Below are positions 1 through 52,634 of a stretch of 64,000 bases of DNA, piece by piece; within the stretch, counting starts at the first letter, position 1, and each line of letters starts with the position of its first letter. The notes beneath the pieces were generated by a model. It ran no database searches. It worked only from the letters and a program-made list of their open reading frames with translations, and was not told the origin of the DNA. The position numbers and the translations under genes were made by a program. Source of the DNA: Acidimicrobiaceae bacterium (GTDB lineage: Bacteria; Actinomycetota; Acidimicrobiia; Acidimicrobiales; Ilumatobacteraceae); contig CANFGT010000002.1 in the NCBI GenBank assembly GCA_947446815.1, positions 62,001 through 126,000 on the forward strand. The letters are read 5' to 3'.

Positions 1-2193
1 AATTTCGTCGATGCGATTCACAAACTCTGGTCGGAAATAATCAATGGGTTCACCCGGCAAGTTGCTCGTCATGATGAGCACCACGTTCGTGAAATCCACT
101 GTGCGTCCTTGGCCGTCAGTGAGACGCCCATCGTCAAGTACTTGCAATAAGATGTTGAAAACATCAGGGTGCGCCTTTTCCACTTCATCCAGCAGTACAA
201 CGCTGTACGGACGACGACGAACAAGTTCTGTTAACTGACCACCTTCGTCGTATCCGACGTATCCCGGAGGAGCGCCAATCAGGCGACTGACGGAATATTT
301 TTCCATGTACTCAGCCATGTCAATTCGCACCATGGCCTTCTCGTCATCAAAGAGATACTCAGCCAATGCGCGAGCCAGTTCTGTTTTGCCAACACCAGTT
401 GGTCCGAGGAACATGAAGGATCCGATGGGGCGATTCGGGTCAGATAGCCCAGCGCGGCTACGGCGAATGGCGTTAGCAACCGCCGTCACTGCTGCGTCTT
501 GTCCAATGACACGCTTGTGTAAGAGGGCTTCAAGATGAACAAGTTTCTGCATCTCGCCTTCCAGCAAGCGACTGACAGGGACACCTGTCCACTTTGCAAC
601 AACCTCTGCAATATCTTCTGCGTCTACTTCTTCTTTCAACATGCGATTGTCTTTTTGCAAGACATCAAGATGTTGCGTGGCTTCATCAATGCGTCGTTCC
701 AACTCGGGGATGCGTCCGTAACGGATCTCTGCAGCCTTCTCTAGATCCGTTTCACGATCTACATGCGAGCGAAGAGTTTCAAGTTCTTCTTTCAGAGTAC
801 GAATAGCAGAAATTGCTTCTCGTTCTGCCTCCCAATGGAACTTCATTTCATCCACTTGCACTTGCAACACATCAAGCTCGTCTTGCAAAGACCCAAGTCG
901 CTCAACAGAAGCCGTGTCGGTTTCCTTTTCAAGCGCAACTTTCTCGATTTCTAATTGGAAGATTCGACGTTGCACAACATCAATTTCTGTTGGAAGTGAA
1001 TCAATCTCGATGCGGAGCTTGCTCGCTGCTTCATCCATAAGGTCAATGGCCTTGTCGGGCAAGAAACGATTCGTGAGGTACCGATTAGACAACACGGCTG
1101 CACTGACCAACGCAGAGTCTTGAATGCGCACACCATGATGCACCTCATAACGTTCCTTCAAGCCACGAAGAATTGCGATGGTGTCTGGCACTGTCGGTTC
1201 ACCGACGTACACCTGTTGGAATCTGCGTTCCAGTGCAGGGTCTTTCTCGACGTACTTACGAAACTCATCGAGTGTTGTGGCACCCACCATGCGCAATTCA
1301 CCGCGTGCAAGCATGGGTTTGATCATGTTGCCCGCATCCATGGCGCCTTCGGAACCTCCGCCAGCACCCACCAACGTATGCATCTCGTCAACAAACGTGA
1401 TTACTTCGCCATTGGAGTCGGTGATCTCTTTCAGCACTGCCTTGAGGCGCTCTTCAAATTCTCCGCGATACTTTGCGCCCGCAAGCATTGATGCCAAGTC
1501 CAACGCAACAAGACGTTTGTTCTTCAACCCCTCTGGAACATCGCCGTCAGCAATGCGCTGTGCGAGACCTTCCACGATTGCTGTTTTGCCCACTCCGGGT
1601 TCGCCAATTAAGACCGGGTTGTTCTTTGTTCGACGCGAGAGCACCTGGATAACGCGTCGAATCTCTTCGTCACGACCAATGACCGGGTCAATTTTTCCGG
1701 CGCGCGCGCGTTCAGTGAGGTCTTGTCCATATTTCTCTAATGCGGCGAATTGTGATTCCGGGTCTTGTGACGTCACTCGATGAGAACCTCGAACTTCACG
1801 AAGCGCCTGCAGCATCTCTTCGCTGCCAATGCCAACACGCTGATTCAGAGCGAGCATCAAATGTTCCACTGACAAGAAATCGTCATGGAGGTCTTTGCGA
1901 GCAGAGTCGGCATTTTCCAATGCATTACTGAGCTCGCGATTCATCCGTGGTTCGGCGCCAGCATCTACGCGCGCTAGTCGACCAATGTTCTCTTCGGCCT
2001 TCGCACGCAACATGCCTGGAGCTACACCGAGCTTCTGCAGCAACGCGGGAACAATTGTGTCTGGCTGACTAACAAGCGCAGCCAAGACGTGGTCGACAGT
2101 GAGCTCAGGGTTACCGTTACTGCGGGCAATATCACTTGCAGCAGCGAAAGCTTCTTGGGTCTTTGTTGTCCACTTTTTCGGATCGATTGCCAT
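1..2193 (-). CDS. clpB: ATP-dependent disaggregase ClpB (3' part outside window)
   Basis: Hexameric cytoplasmic AAA+ chaperone that works with DnaK, DnaJ and GrpE to pull proteins out of aggregates. The 731 visible codons start at an ATG preceded by an AGGAGG ribosome binding site. They show the N-terminal Clp repeat domain (about 1-145), the first Walker A (GEPGVGKT, about 198-205) with a DEMHT Walker B, the coiled-coil M domain, and the second Walker A (GPTGVGKT) with a DEVEKA Walker B. Full-length ClpB is about 860 residues, so roughly the last 130 lie outside the window. It starts 20 bp after hspR and is probably the last gene of the dnaK operon; many actinobacteria instead keep clpB as a separate HspR-controlled gene. 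Confidence 0.97.
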
Positions 2194-2213: not shown

Positions 2214-2609
2214 TTATCGGTTGGGATCAAAAATGCTGGGGCGTTCGTTGTAAAGCGTGATGGCACGTCGTAGTGGCACCAATGCTCCCGATGATCGCTG
2301 TTCTAGTGCGTTGACTGCATCGATAAGTCCCTGGCGCAGTTCTGCCACTTCTGTTCGAAGTCGTATGACTTCTTCTTCTAAAGACATCACGTGTCGGATG
2401 CCTTCAAGATTCATTCCCGTCGTTGCGAGTTCAGCAATACGACGCAGTCGCATGATGTCTGCATCGCTGTATCGACGATTTCCGCCAGTCGTGCGCGCTG
2501 GAGTGAGCAACCCACGGCGCTCATAAATACGCAATGTCTGCGGATGCATGCCGGCGAGTTCTGCCGCGACAGAAATCACGTACACCGCTTGATGATGAGG
2601 GCGCATCAT
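2214..2609 (-). CDS. hspR: HspR, MerR-family heat-shock repressor
   Basis: Transcriptional repressor of the dnaK operon in actinobacteria; DnaK normally acts as its co-repressor. The 131 residues carry a MerR-type winged helix-turn-helix at about 9-58, with the recognition segment [14 protein letters not shown] and the wing motif GGNRRYS. A heptad-rich coiled coil follows at about 77-105. The start ATG overlaps the dnaJ stop (ATGA), so the two are translationally coupled. Its position directly after dnaJ is the classic actinobacterial arrangement. A HAIR-like inverted repeat, the known HspR target type, lies upstream of dnaK at 6119-6139. Confidence 0.93.
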
Positions 2610-3706
2610 GACTTGGCCTTGTCTCGTGGATTACGCAAGATTTCACTCAGTGCTTCGACTGCCGCTTGTTCTTCTTCGTTCAAGCTCGAGGGCACTGCAA
2701 CTTCCACCGTCACGATGAGATCGCCCGTGGTTTTCGCGTTTGAGATTCCTTTGCTCTTCACCCGATGACGTGAACCAGATTGTGTGCCGGGCTTTAGACG
2801 CAGAGTTACTTCGCCATCGCTGAGCGTCGGCACAGTGATCGTTGCACCCAAGACGGCTTCGGTGAATGAAACAGGAACCCGTACAAGCAACGTGAGTCCT
2901 TCTCGCGTGAAGAATGCATGCGGCGACACACGGCATTCGACGAGCAAGTCGCCTGCTGGACCACCGTTACGCCCGGGAGTGCCTCGCCCCTTGAGACGAA
3001 TACGTTGGCCATCGTCGACTCCCGCAGGAATACGAACATTGACATCGCGTGGGCGCCGTTCAATTCCGTTACCGCGACACGTACCGCATGGGTATTCAAT
3101 GATGTTTCCCTTGCCGCCACATGAGCGACATGGCGAAGACATTGCGAAGGGCCCTTGATTACTGGCAACTGATCCTCGGCCACCACATGCGCTGCACATC
3201 TTGGGTGATGTCCCTGGTTTTGCACCAGAACCTGTACACGTGGAACAGACTGCATCAGCAGTGAGATGCAACGACGTAGTGAGGCCATGCGCTGCCTCCT
3301 CAAACGACAACGTCAAGGTGGATTCAATATCTGCACCGCGTTGTGGTCCAACGCCGCTTGCGCCACCACGGCGACCACGACCGCCAAACATTTGTCCGAG
3401 GATGTCGCCGAGATCGCCACCGCCCATGTCGAAGCCCATGTTCTGACCGCCACCGAACCCAGCAGATGGGCCCATGCGGCGCACTTCGTCATACTCAGTG
3501 CGTTTAGAAGCATCGCCGACGACGTCATATGCGGCAGAGATGTCTTTGAATTTCTCTTCTGCTTCTTTGTTCCCAGGATTTGTATCCGGGTGATATTGAC
3601 GCGCCAAGCGCCTGTAGGCCTTCGTGATGTCCTTCTCTGTTGCGTCTTTCGACACTCCGAGGACGGCGTAGTAGTCCTTTTCAAACCACTCGCGTTGGGC
3701 AGCCAA
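2606..3706 (-). CDS. dnaJ: Chaperone protein DnaJ
   Basis: Type I Hsp40 co-chaperone that delivers clients to DnaK and stimulates its ATPase. The J domain at about 9-75 has the essential HPD at 39-41. A Gly/Phe-rich linker follows (about 81-120). Four CxxCxGxG zinc repeats have cysteine pairs at 154/157, 171/174, 193/196 and 207/210, followed by the C-terminal substrate-binding domains. At 366 residues it is a normal full-length DnaJ. It starts 3 bp after the grpE stop and overlaps hspR by 4 bp. Confidence 0.98.
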   Translation of the reverse strand: MAAQREWFEKDYYAVLGVSKDATEKDITKAYRRLARQYHPDTNPGNKEAEEKFKDISAAYDVVGDASKRTEYDEVRRMGPSAGFGGGQNMGFDMGGGDLGDILGQMFGGRGRRGGASGVGPQRGADIESTLTLSFEEAAHGLTTSLHLTADAVCSTCTGSGAKPGTSPKMCSACGGRGSVASNQGPFAMSSPCRSCGGKGNIIEYPCGTCRGNGIERRPRDVNVRIPAGVDDGQRIRLKGRGTPGRNGGPAGDLLVECRVSPHAFFTREGLTLLVRVPVSFTEAVLGATITVPTLSDGEVTLRLKPGTQSGSRHRVKSKGISNAKTTGDLIVTVEVAVPSSLNEEEQAAVEALSEILRNPRDKAKS

Positions 3707-3709
3707 GAC

Positions 3710-4195
3710 TTATCCCTTTACCTTCACCATGGCAGCGCGCAAGACGCGACCCTTCCATTCGTAACCAGTGCGCAGAACTTCGCTGACAATTGGTTCACCG
3801 CCGTCGCCAGGTTCATGCATCACTGCTTCCGCTAACTCCGGATTGAATGGCTGATTCAAAAGATCAAGCGCAATGAGGCCTTGGCTCTTCAGCGCGCCCA
3901 TGAGTGAAGACCAAATAGGTTCCACACCTTCGGCGCCGTGAGCAAAAGCTGCTTCGCACGCATCTAAAACGGGAAGAAGAGATTCAGCCATGCGACCAGT
4001 TGCACGTGCAATCTCATCAGACTGCATCTGCGTCATGCGCTTTTTGTAATTCTCAAAGTCTGCTTGCAAACGCAAAGCGATGTCTTTGAACTCATTACGT
4101 TCAGCGAGCAGAGCGTCAATGTCATGTTCGACAGCAACTTCTTCAACAACCTCGGTCGGCGCCTCTTCAAGCTGTTCGACAGTTTCGTCAGTCAT
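3710..4195 (-). CDS. grpE: Nucleotide exchange factor GrpE
   Basis: Dimeric exchange factor that releases ADP from DnaK. The 161 residues begin with an acidic low-complexity tail (about 1-25), then the long coiled-coil helix and the C-terminal beta domain. The C-terminal signature is recognisable around AEAVMHEPG and EVLRTGYEWKGRVLRAAMV. It lies 3 bp after dnaK and just before dnaJ in the standard operon order. Confidence 0.96.
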   Translation of the reverse strand: MTDETVEQLEEAPTEVVEEVAVEHDIDALLAERNEFKDIALRLQADFENYKKRMTQMQSDEIARATGRMAESLLPVLDACEAAFAHGAEGVEPIWSSLMGALKSQGLIALDLLNQPFNPELAEAVMHEPGDGGEPIVSEVLRTGYEWKGRVLRAAMVKVKG

Positions 4196-4198
4196 TGC

Positions 4199-6031
4199 TT
4201 ACTGCTCATCAACAATCTCGGCATCAACAATGTCGTCATCAGAGGGTGCAGATGCACCCGAGGCTGACGTACCGGCTGCACCACTGTCACGCGCTGCTGC
4301 CTCATACAACTTCTGGCTGAAAGCTTGGCTTGCACCCATGAGTGTTTCAGTTGTGGACTTGATCTGGTCAAGATCGTTTGCCGCAATGGCTGCCTTCAAC
4401 GCAGAAAGTGGGCCTTCAACTGCGTCTTTCTCCTCGGCAGGAACATTCTCGCCCTGTTCGCGCAAGACCTTTTCAGTTTGGTAGACGAGCGAGTCAGCAT
4501 TGTTACGAATCTCTGCTTCATCACGACGGCGACGGTCATCTTCTGCATGTGCTTCGGCATCACGAATCATCTCTTCGATCTTGTCCTTGCTCAACGAAGA
4601 AGCATTCTGCACTTGCATCTTGTTTTCTTTGTTTGTTGCACGGTCCTTTGCCGACACAACGACAATGCCGTTCGCATCGATGTCAAAGGTGACTTCAATC
4701 TGTGGAACACCGCGGGGTGCTGGCGGTAATTCAGAGAGTGTGAAAGTTCCAAGCTCTGAGTTGTACGCAGCCATTTCGCGCTCACCTTGCAACACTTTGA
4801 TTTCGACTGACGGCTGATTGTCATCTGCCGTCGTGAACACTTCGGTGCGGCGAGTAGGAATGGTGGTGTTGCGCTCAATGAGCTTTGTCATCACGCCACC
4901 CTTTGTCTCGATTCCCAATGACAACGGAGTCACGTCGAGAAGAAGAACGTCTTTCACTTCGCCCTTCAACACGCCAGCCTGCACAGCTGCTCCATCAGCA
5001 ACAACTTCATCAGGGTTCACAGTTTTGTTGGGCTCTTTGCCGGTGAGACTGAACACGAGGTCCTGTACTGCTGGCATACGAGTAGAACCGCCCACAAGAA
5101 TCACGTGATTCACTTGGTCCTTCTTGAGACCTGCATCGGACAATGCCTTCTCGAAGGAAACGCGACAACGCTCAACAAGGTCGGCGGTCATTTCTTGGAA
5201 CTTGGAACGTGACAACTGTTCATCAAGGTGCAATGGACCTTCGGCTGTTGCTGTGATGAACGGAAGATTGATCTGAGTCTGTTGTGTCTGGCTCAGTTCA
5301 ATCTTTGCTTTTTCGGCAGCTTCTTTCAATCGTTGCAATGCCATACGGTCTTGTGCAAGGTCCACATTGTGTGCGGCCTTGAACTGTTGCACCAACCAAT
5401 CGATGATGCGCTGGTCCCAGTCATCTCCGCCAAGGTGAGTGTCACCGTGTGTGCTCTTTACTTCGAAAACTCCGTCGCCAATTTCAAGAACTGACACGTC
5501 GAATGTTCCACCACCAAGGTCGAACACCAAAATGGTTTCATCTTGTGAAGATTTGTCGAGACCATAAGCAAGCGCTGCAGCAGTTGGTTCGTTGATGATG
5601 CGCAGCACATTGAGCCCAGCAATTGCACCTGCTTCTTTTGTTGCAGTGCGCTCTGCGTCGTTGAAGTACGCCGGAACGGTGATCACAGCGTCGGTCACGG
5701 TGGTGCCCAAGTACGCCTCGGCATCACGCTTCAACTTCATGAGAATGCGCGCACTGATTTCCTGTGGGGAATACTTCTTGCCGTCGATGTCTTCTGACAT
5801 CCAGGACTTGCCCATTTCGCGCTTGATGCTGCGGAAGGTGCGATCCGGGTTGGTGATGGCCTGACGCTTCGCGACTTCGCCCACCAGGACTTCACCGGTC
5901 TTCGAGAACGCAACGATGGACGGCGTTGTGCGCGCGCCTTCTGCGTTTGGGATAACAACTCGCTCGCCCGCTTCGAGAACTGCAACAACTGAGTTCGTAG
6001 TTCCGAGGTCGATTCCGACTGCTTTTGCCAT
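4199..6031 (-). CDS. dnaK: Molecular chaperone DnaK (Hsp70)
   Basis: ATP-driven cytoplasmic chaperone. The 610 residues begin with the Hsp70 phosphate-binding signature GIDLGTTNS (about 6-14). The second signature [10 protein letters not shown] and the third ([11 protein letters not shown]) are present, followed by the substrate-binding domain and a lid ending in an acidic tail ([13 protein letters not shown]). It is the first gene of dnaK-grpE-dnaJ-hspR-clpB. The start ATG has an AGGAG site about 9 bases upstream. A candidate promoter, a CIRCE-like element and a HAIR-like element lie in the 143-bp region shared with divergent gpmI. Confidence 0.99.
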
Positions 6032-6063: not shown

Positions 6064-6090
6064 TTAGCAGTCATGATAGGGGACTGCTAA
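6064..6090 (-). promoter_or_regulatory. CIRCE-like operator (HrcA-type) upstream of dnaK
   Basis: Perfect inverted repeat TTAGCAGTC-N9-GACTGCTAA. The family consensus is TTAGCACTC-N9-GAGTGCTAA, so there is one substitution, made symmetrically in both arms, and the spacer is the canonical 9 bases. It covers the putative dnaK -10 box and most of the spacer. Binding by HrcA is inferred; hrcA is not in this window. Confidence 0.75.
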
Positions 6091-6102
6091 TTCCGCTTGC
6101 AA
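6073..6102 (-). promoter_or_regulatory. Candidate dnaK promoter
   Basis: On the minus strand a TTGCAA -35 box (6097-6102) and a TATCAT -10 box (6073-6078) are separated by 18 bases, about 40 bp before the dnaK start. The CIRCE-like repeat overlaps the -10 box and spacer, which fits a repressor site. No transcript data are available. Confidence 0.45.
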
Positions 6103-6118
6103 CCATCATGGCAGGAAA

Positions 6119-6139
6119 CTTGATACAGGTACACTCAAC
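6119..6139 (-). promoter_or_regulatory. HAIR-like HspR operator upstream of dnaK
   Basis: The sequence CTTGATA-N7-ACTCAAC matches the HspR-associated inverted repeat CTTGAGT-N7-ACTCAAG at 11 of 14 arm positions, with the correct 7-base spacer. It lies just upstream of the candidate dnaK -35 box and 36 bp before the gpmI start. The hspR gene in the same operon makes feedback control the natural reading. Confidence 0.6.
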
Positions 6140-6174
6140 TTTGCAGAGGCCACTTCTCCATTTAGTCTGACGGG

Positions 6175-7824
6175 ATGGCATCCCCCGCTACCAACTCCGC
6201 CGCCGCCCCGCTTGTTCTCGCAATCCTCGATGGTGTTGGCCTTGAAGCTGATACCCCCGACAATGCCGTGAGCGGTGCATGTGCCCCATTCCTCCACGGC
6301 GCAATCAATGGCCAAGTTGATGGCATGGCTGTTGTTTCCCTTCCGATCCGAGCTCACGGAGTTGCTGTGGGACTCCCGACCGACGCCGACATGGGCAACT
6401 CTGAGGTTGGTCACAACATCATGGGGGCTGGTCGTATTTTCGACCAAGGGGCAAAGCAAGTAGAAGAAGCTTTCCGCACTGGAACTATTTGGGGCGAAGC
6501 ATGGGACATGGTGATGTCTCACAAGGACCATCAGATTCATTTTGTGGGCTTGCTCTCGGATGGCAATGTGCACTCCCACATTCGCCATCTCAAGGCCCTT
6601 GTCACTGCTGCTGCCACAGTCGGAGCGCAAAAGATCGTCATCCACCCTTTGTTCGATGGGCGCGACGTCAGAGATGGAACCGCAGAGGCTTACCTCGCTG
6701 ACCTTGAGGCCTTCCTTGCCGACATCGCAGCAACCCACCGTTGCTCCGCGCTTGTTGGTTCTGGTGGCGGTCGCATGATCGTCACCATGGACCGATACGA
6801 GGCCGACTGGACCATTGTTGAAAATGGCTGGAAGGCCCACGCCGAGGGATCTGCTCGACCATTTCGTTCTGCAGCCGAAGCATTAGCAACTTTGCGTGCC
6901 GAGGACACGGGCGTCAGCGACCAGTACCTGCCACCGTTCACCATCGTTGACAACACCGGGTCACCCGTTGGCGCAATGCACGATGACGATGCCGTTGTCA
7001 TCTTTAACTTCCGCGGCGACCGCGTCGTCGAGATTTACCGCGCACTCACAGAAGAACCCTTTAGCCAGTTTGTCCGTGGCCCATTACCCAACAATCTTCT
7101 CGTTGTCGGCATGACGTTGTACGACGGCGACATGGGAATCCCTGCGCATTTTCTCGTGTCTCCCACACGCGTCACGGGCACTGTGTCAGAACTTCTTGCA
7201 ACAGCCGGCATCGCACAATATGCAGTTGCTGAAACACAAAAATTTGGGCATGTCACATATTTTTGGAATGGCAATCGATCGGAAAAGTTCAACGATCAAC
7301 TTGAAACATGGGTTGAAATTCCTTCCGACAAAGTGTCGTTTGACAAGTTGCCAAAGATGAAAGCGAAAGAGACGGGTGACGCAGTTGTCGCAGCCGTCGA
7401 AAGTGGTAAATACCCCTTTATTCGTTGCAATTTTGCAGGTGGCGACATGGTGGGCCATACCGGTGATATTCCTGCGTCGATCATCGCTGTTGAAGCAATT
7501 GACCAAGCACTTGTGCGCGTGAACGATGCCGTGCGTGCAGCTGGTGGAACACTTCTCATCACTGCTGACCATGGCAACTGTGAAGTGTTAGTCGAACGCG
7601 ACAAGAACGGTGCTCCACTCATGGATGCACACGGTGTAGCCGTTCCAAAGAAGTCGCACACGTTGTCACCGGTTCCATTTATCGCCATTGATTATGCGAA
7701 TCGGACCGTCACATCTGCCGGCGTCAGCGATGCAGGTATTTCCAACATTGCAGCAACGATCCTCACATTGCTCGCTCAGCCGGTACCTAGCGACTACCGC
7801 TCTGCACTCATCGCCGTTTCATAA
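6175..7824 (+). CDS. gpmI: 2,3-bisphosphoglycerate-independent phosphoglycerate mutase
   Basis: Cytoplasmic glycolytic enzyme converting 3-phosphoglycerate to 2-phosphoglycerate with two manganese ions. The 549 residues start with the metal-binding LDGVG segment (Asp about 19). The motif MGNSEVGHN holds the phosphoserine nucleophile at about Ser76. The C-terminal metal ligands are visible in GGDMVGHTGD and LLITADHGNCE, near the end. Length is at the upper end of the family (about 510-550). It is divergent from dnaK and shares its upstream region, so heat-shock repressors could influence it too. Confidence 0.96.
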   Translation: MASPATNSAAAPLVLAILDGVGLEADTPDNAVSGACAPFLHGAINGQVDGMAVVSLPIRAHGVAVGLPTDADMGNSEVGHNIMGAGRIFDQGAKQVEEAFRTGTIWGEAWDMVMSHKDHQIHFVGLLSDGNVHSHIRHLKALVTAAATVGAQKIVIHPLFDGRDVRDGTAEAYLADLEAFLADIAATHRCSALVGSGGGRMIVTMDRYEADWTIVENGWKAHAEGSARPFRSAAEALATLRAEDTGVSDQYLPPFTIVDNTGSPVGAMHDDDAVVIFNFRGDRVVEIYRALTEEPFSQFVRGPLPNNLLVVGMTLYDGDMGIPAHFLVSPTRVTGTVSELLATAGIAQYAVAETQKFGHVTYFWNGNRSEKFNDQLETWVEIPSDKVSFDKLPKMKAKETGDAVVAAVESGKYPFIRCNFAGGDMVGHTGDIPASIIAVEAIDQALVRVNDAVRAAGGTLLITADHGNCEVLVERDKNGAPLMDAHGVAVPKKSHTLSPVPFIAIDYANRTVTSAGVSDAGISNIAATILTLLAQPVPSDYRSALIAVS

Positions 7825-51827: not shown

Positions 51828-52634
51828 CTATTTCGGAAGTGGGTCAGTGGTGGGCAACATTGACATGCGCGAAAAGTCTTCGGAAATAGCCTGTGCAGTT
51901 GAGAGCAATAACGGCAAGTGCGTTTTCTTTAGTTCAGCGATGGACGTCTCAGCAGCATTGGTGGTGACGTTCACCGCGGCGATGACAGAACCACTGCCAT
52001 CGGTGACCGGTGCAGCGATGGAACGAATGCCGAACGATAAGCGTTCATCAGACAATGCCCAACCACGACTACGCACTTCTGCCAGTGCGACATCAATCTC
52101 TTTGCGAGTCGGGCGTACACGCGGCACCACCGGTGATTGCGAAGGAATCTTTAAGACAGCATCAAGTTCTTTGGTGGACAGTGCCGACAAGAGCACGTGT
52201 CCCATCGACGTTGCAATGGCAGGGAAGCGCGTGCCAATCTGCACGGACAAGCCGATGATCTTCGGAACAGGAACACGTGCGGTGTACACAATGTCGCTTC
52301 CATCTAATTGCGACATCGAACTTGATTCATGTGTGCGCGCCACTAGTGACACCAAGTGCGGTCGTGCGATATCCCACATTCCTTGTGCGTTGATGTACGA
52401 CATACCTAACTCGAGGACTTTCGGCGTCAACATGAAGACGCCATCATTTGAACGGACGTATCCAAGCTGTTCCAACGTGATCAGCAGGCGGCGCGCGGTT
52501 GGCCGTGCCAAATCAGTGAGCGAGGCAACGTCGCTCACTGTGAGTGCAAGGTGCGACAACGAGAACGCGCGCATGACATTAAGTCCACGCGCTAACGCTT
52601 CAACAAAGTCCGGTTCGTCTCGTTTTGTTGCCAT
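51828..52634 (-). CDS. IclR-family transcriptional regulator
   Basis: 268 residues from ATG 52634 (MATKRDEPDF) after a GGGAGG site; a longer frame to 52673 is less likely. Winged helix (about 12-75, LTVSDVASLTDLARPTARRLLITLEQLGYV cited by its ends) and an effector domain (about 85-250) with SMGHVLLSAL. It is divergent from the CoA-transferase/lyase pair with a 54-bp gap, so it most likely controls that pair. An overlapping plus-strand frame is a shadow. Confidence 0.92.
   Translation of the reverse strand: MATKRDEPDFVEALARGLNVMRAFSLSHLALTVSDVASLTDLARPTARRLLITLEQLGYVRSNDGVFMLTPKVLELGMSYINAQGMWDIARPHLVSLVARTHESSSMSQLDGSDIVYTARVPVPKIIGLSVQIGTRFPAIATSMGHVLLSALSTKELDAVLKIPSQSPVVPRVRPTRKEIDVALAEVRSRGWALSDERLSFGIRSIAAPVTDGSGSVIAAVNVTTNAAETSIAELKKTHLPLLLSTAQAISEDFSRMSMLPTTDPLPK

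Follow-up and report, generated by a model that had tools for sequence, protein, structure and literature searches.

The dnaK promoter in the window (the whole stretch of 64,000 nucleotides analysed here) carries both a HAIR-type and a CIRCE-type operator. This pairing had been proposed in a first-pass annotation of the DNA, and both elements lie where it placed them and read as it gave them. The best explanation is, with high probability, that a single promoter of a dnaK-grpE-dnaJ-hspR-clpB operon is controlled by two repressors, HspR and HrcA. The sites, their positions, their conservation, the genes for both repressors and groE sites of the same type are directly established, and from these we infer binding, repression and feedback from the chaperones.

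Descriptions of chaperone control in actinobacteria generally treat the GroE arm (HrcA) and the DnaK arm (HspR) as two separate loops of feedback. The promoter described here suggests that, in a freshwater-type actinobacterium and a small number of its close relatives, the two circuits are wired together. Each of the parts has been described before; the combination of HAIR and CIRCE at a dnaK promoter in Actinomycetota appears to be new, as a variation on an architecture already established by experiment. No report of a CIRCE at an actinobacterial dnaK promoter was found in the literature searched, outside which most subscription papers lay.

Organization of the dnaK locus

The operon lies on the minus strand, with dnaK at 4199-6031 (TIGR02350, above cut-off), followed by grpE at 3710-4195 (identified through family-model matches), dnaJ at 2606-3706 (TIGR02349, above cut-off) and hspR at 2214-2609. 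The product of the last gene, the repressor expected at HAIR, matches the HspR model NF047375 with 119.2 bits (cut-off 105). These four genes are separated by gaps of a few bases or overlap. The fifth gene of the tight cluster, clpB (1-2193, minus strand), extends beyond the window edge; since its ATG at 2193 is located only 20 bp past hspR, clpB may be transcribed from the dnaK promoter as well. On the other side of dnaK, gpmI (6175-7824, plus strand; TIGR01307, above cut-off) is transcribed divergently, and the 143-bp dnaK-gpmI intergenic region houses both operators.

The CIRCE operator

The candidate HrcA site is a perfect inverted repeat, TTAGCAGTC-N9-GACTGCTAA, at 6064-6090. The arms are exact (6064-6072 and 6082-6090) and flank a 9-bp spacer, so that the element reads TTAGCAGTC-ATGATAGGG-GACTGCTAA in full. 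It matches the CIRCE pattern TTAGCACTC-N9-GAGTGCTAA when one symmetric position is left free: relative to the canonical element, there is a C-to-G change at position 7 of both arms. The first-pass annotation had described it as a CIRCE with one symmetric change; the perfect repeat was confirmed, while the change proved to be a normal variant in this genus. Among CIRCE sites of the genus that correspond in sequence to the groES and groEL sites of this genome, most have G or A at position 7 of one arm. Because such variation is common at the groE sites of the genus, the dnaK repeat is, as far as its sequence can indicate, a lineage-typical CIRCE, and the G in both arms is no argument against HrcA.

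Across the whole window, one CIRCE match with three or fewer mismatches was observed where 0.15 would be expected. In 20,000 shuffles of the 143-bp intergenic region, a perfect 9-N9-9 repeat of any sequence arose 14 times, and no shuffle came within one mismatch of CIRCE. Shuffles took the place of a control with backwards (uncomplemented) CIRCE, which is unusable at dnaK promoters because the backwards HAIR happens to resemble CIRCE. The shuffles and the genome-wide pattern of sites (see below) exclude a chance origin of the repeat. A further perfect 9-N9-9 inverted repeat at 52514-52540 is located inside a gene encoding an IclR-type regulator and has no relation to CIRCE.

The HAIR operator and the dnaK promoter

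The candidate HspR site spans 6119-6139, 28 bp upstream of the CIRCE. It reads CTTGATA-CAGGTAC-ACTCAAC in the orientation of the window and GTTGAGT-N7-TATCAAG on the dnaK strand, where it has mismatches at three of the 14 positions of CTTGAGT-N7-ACTCAAG (two to a relaxed form); one arm departs from the consensus. A match of equal quality was reached in 40 of 5,000 shuffles, which is weak evidence if taken alone; it is conservation across the genus and family that supports the assignment as a likely HAIR. Several relatives have zero to two mismatches to the consensus at the conserved place. The site is also the best match in its genome (no mismatches) to an extended HAIR pattern derived from the genus, a pattern built in part from dnaK sites. 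A second candidate for this pattern, at C1:145264 (two mismatches), is inside a gene unrelated to chaperones and was taken as chance. The repeat precedes an operon that contains hspR, as an operator of the HspR regulon requires.

A promoter scan predicts a sigma-70-type promoter, TTGCAA-18-TATCAT, on the minus strand. The predicted -35 hexamer (6097-6102) corresponds to a TTGnnA motif conserved in the genus 15 bp from HAIR, and the predicted -10 hexamer (6073-6078) falls wholly within the CIRCE spacer; transcription would be expected to start near 6066. The spacing of HAIR-15-(-35)-17/18-(-10) is conserved among dnaK promoters of the genus.

The first-pass annotation had suggested that dual control might extend to the divergent gpmI gene. 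A tentative gpmI promoter, TTGCAG-16-TAGTCT (6141-6168, plus strand), was recognized by eye and was not flagged by the promoter scan; it would make the gpmI mRNA leaderless, and a similar sequence is present in G155, G156, G157 and G160. Since this weak candidate adjoins HAIR, HspR might influence gpmI. The end of the CIRCE is about 85 bp from the gpmI start, however, and gpmI is also divergent from dnaK in relatives that have no CIRCE. The extension is therefore speculative and weakly supported, and we make no claim for gpmI regulation.

HrcA and other CIRCE sites in the genome

The genome, that of a member of the Acidimicrobiales whose closest named records belong to the Ilumatobacteraceae, encodes hrcA, as had been anticipated (TIGR00331, 271.9 bits, cut-off 197.2; PF01628, E = 1.3e-42). 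The gene sits apart from the dnaK operon and is followed by a second dnaJ. Only three CIRCE sites with one mismatch or fewer occur in the 1.96-Mb assembly, and they precede groES, a second groEL and dnaK. The predicted occurrence of TTAGCAnTC-N9-GAnTGCTAA before groES and groEL was thus borne out: the groES site, TTAGCAGTC...GAGTGCTAA, is 61 bp upstream of its gene, and the second groEL gene is preceded by TTAGCAGTC...GAGTGCTAG. A fourth match, with three mismatches (C14:21363), is within an apbE-like gene and was taken as chance.

Many genomes of the family have paired CIRCE sites approximately 48-49 bp apart (for example G013:C70:34654-34729 and G082:C8:34200-34275), in which one arm of one site is GGTTGCTAA. 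The window's genome retains only an arm of such a pair, CGGTTGCTAA, upstream of the groES CIRCE, and for this reason the paired loci are probably groES promoters.

Conservation of the two operators

We compared 28 dnaK promoters of the window's genus, 101 of other genera of the family and 80 of named genomes, the last mostly Acidimicrobiia and other Actinomycetota with species partly overlapping the family set. The operators differ in their conservation in relatives, and the outcome that would have counted against the original proposal, conservation of neither, did not arise. HAIR is found in all 28 genus promoters, and in every one with a parsable spacing it precedes the -35 by 15 bp; HAIR-like elements occur in nearly all promoters of the family and in most of those from named genomes. 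CIRCE is present in seven of the 28 (G000, G155, G156, G160 and G157, and with two to three mismatches G159 and G144), the window's genome included. It is absent from the other 21, from all 101 promoters of other family genera (where the best match has five mismatches) and from all 80 promoters of named genomes. The CIRCE at dnaK is patchy rather than general and, being missing from most genus promoters and all of the others compared, would be dispensable.

The HAIR-to-CIRCE distance is 28 bp in all seven carriers, and the arms, with variants such as TTAGCACTC...GACTGCTAA, TTAGCAGTC...GACTGCTAA and TTGGCACTC...GACTGCCAA, remain largely complementary while arm sequence, spacer and flanks vary; G159 has mirrored changes in its two arms (TTGGCA...TGCCAA). 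Conservation among the four closest genomes partly reflects shared descent. The invariant distance is only suggestive of contact or cooperativity between HspR and HrcA, because the spacing from HAIR to the promoter is fixed in promoters without CIRCE too.

A composite pattern (HAIR, 16 to 46 bp, then the CIRCE core, with no mismatches allowed) was searched in samples of 395 genomes of the class and 396 of the phylum. Besides the window's genome, it matched one genome in each sample, G383 and G604. In both, HAIR is followed by two CIRCE sites before groES-groEL (L310:1501-1640 and L311:1501-1680), and no further dnaK promoter with both operators was found in these samples with this zero-mismatch pattern.

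Model of dual repression and comparison with known systems

The sites, the repressor genes and the conservation pattern support the proposal of dual repression linking the two chaperone regulons, and would fit the following scheme. HspR, encoded in the operon, would occupy HAIR immediately before the -35, the usual arrangement in actinobacteria; HrcA, whose gene lies outside the operon, would bind the CIRCE containing the -10 hexamer and block RNA polymerase. By analogy with other bacteria, HspR would need free DnaK in order to repress, and HrcA would need free GroE in order to be active, so that full induction would come only when unfolded protein titrates both chaperone systems. The DnaK/ClpB arm would become coupled to GroE status, to which a promoter reading both repressors would tie the levels of DnaK, ClpB and HspR.

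HrcA of Bacillus subtilis is not known to operate together with HspR or HAIR. The window's promoter is like its B. subtilis counterpart in having a CIRCE before dnaK, and unlike it in that HspR and HAIR are present. The B. subtilis CIRCE lies before the dnaK operon (cited in PMC7464140). In Campylobacter jejuni, footprints at Pgro and Phrc show HrcA over the core promoter and HspR on its upstream side, with cooperative binding and direct contact between the two proteins (PMC7464140). According to the same review, GroE stimulates HrcA, and in Streptomyces coelicolor DnaK does so for HspR. The groES-groEL and hrcA-grpE-dnaK operons of Helicobacter pylori are co-regulated by HspR and HrcA, with the same layout shown experimentally (PMC6032397). 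The window's promoter matches this dual layout: HAIR upstream and CIRCE over the predicted core promoter, close together, on the one promoter of a chaperone operon. C. jejuni and H. pylori, however, belong to the Campylobacterota and have hrcA inside the dnaK operon, whereas in this actinobacterium the dnaK operon contains hspR and clpB, hrcA is located apart from it alongside a second dnaJ, and the groE sites showed no HAIR. The dnaK-grpE-dnaJ-hspR order with HAIR before dnaK is shared with Streptomyces and Bifidobacterium. In the Bifidobacterium model, HAIR is assigned to dnaK and clpB, and CIRCE to groEL, groES and hrcA (PMC9004370); dnaK has no CIRCE in that model, in contrast to the promoter described here. 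The two other actinobacteria G383 and G604 also have both operators on one chaperone promoter, as a mirror image: there an HspR site is added to groE, and here an HrcA site is added to dnaK.

Alternative explanations

HrcA might have mostly taken over the promoter, leaving CIRCE as the working operator and the imperfect HAIR as a relic. The three HAIR mismatches, set against a perfect palindrome over the -10, would fit such a history, but we consider it unlikely: most CIRCE-free members of the genus, in which HAIR is the sole operator seen, have this TATCAA half-site too, the dnaK HAIR remains the top extended-HAIR match of its genome (with the reservation given above on how that pattern was defined), and hspR is intact within the operon.

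A palindrome formed by chance, or a neutral remnant not bound by HrcA, would account for the patchy distribution of the repeat in the genus. This reading is very improbable given the shuffles and the placement of sites in the genome, and given that in three separate lineages of the dnaK and hrcA trees spacer and flanks have diverged but the two arms still match. Least plausible of all is action at the RNA level, through a stem-loop in the 5' leader of the dnaK mRNA. CIRCE does influence mRNA stability in some bacteria in which it is transcribed; the start predicted here, though, puts almost the whole repeat upstream of the transcript.

Evolution of the dnaK CIRCE

In the dnaK and hrcA trees, some branches of which are weak, the seven carriers fall in three separate places, requiring a minimum of three changes. 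Such counts do not tell gain from loss; CIRCE-free outgroups favour gain. Most probably, the dnaK CIRCE arose within the genus as a derived feature, recent or patchy, added to an older HspR-only promoter. The intergenic region of G157 shares 75-82% with the window's clade and 63-69% with its CIRCE-free relatives G161 and G162, so the CIRCE of G157 and that of the window's clade may have one common origin, through descent or recombination, between which the gpmI tree does not decide. Because matched promoters with and without CIRCE exist within one genus, this patchiness makes the effect of adding one operator directly testable.

A CIRCE-like site, TTGGCACTC-N9-GAGTGCCAA or CTAGCAnTC...GAGTGCTAA, also occurs between galU and a divergent gene for a small serine-rich protein (upstream regions L312-L333; for example L152:1208-1234). 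It is present in many members of the genus, including most of those without a dnaK CIRCE, and may be an additional HrcA target; the window's genome and its closest relatives have it only in decayed form or lack it. A clean swap of HrcA targets, with dnaK gained and galU lost, was rejected: the two sites coexist in G157, and both are missing from G025 and G153. We put forward only tentatively, as somewhat doubtful, that dnaK gained an HrcA operator several times independently, always at the -10, and that the galU operator was lost in the window's lineage. If true, the repeated gain would offer a naturally occurring series of steps, readable species by species, in which the chaperone regulons were rewired from HspR-only to HspR plus HrcA.
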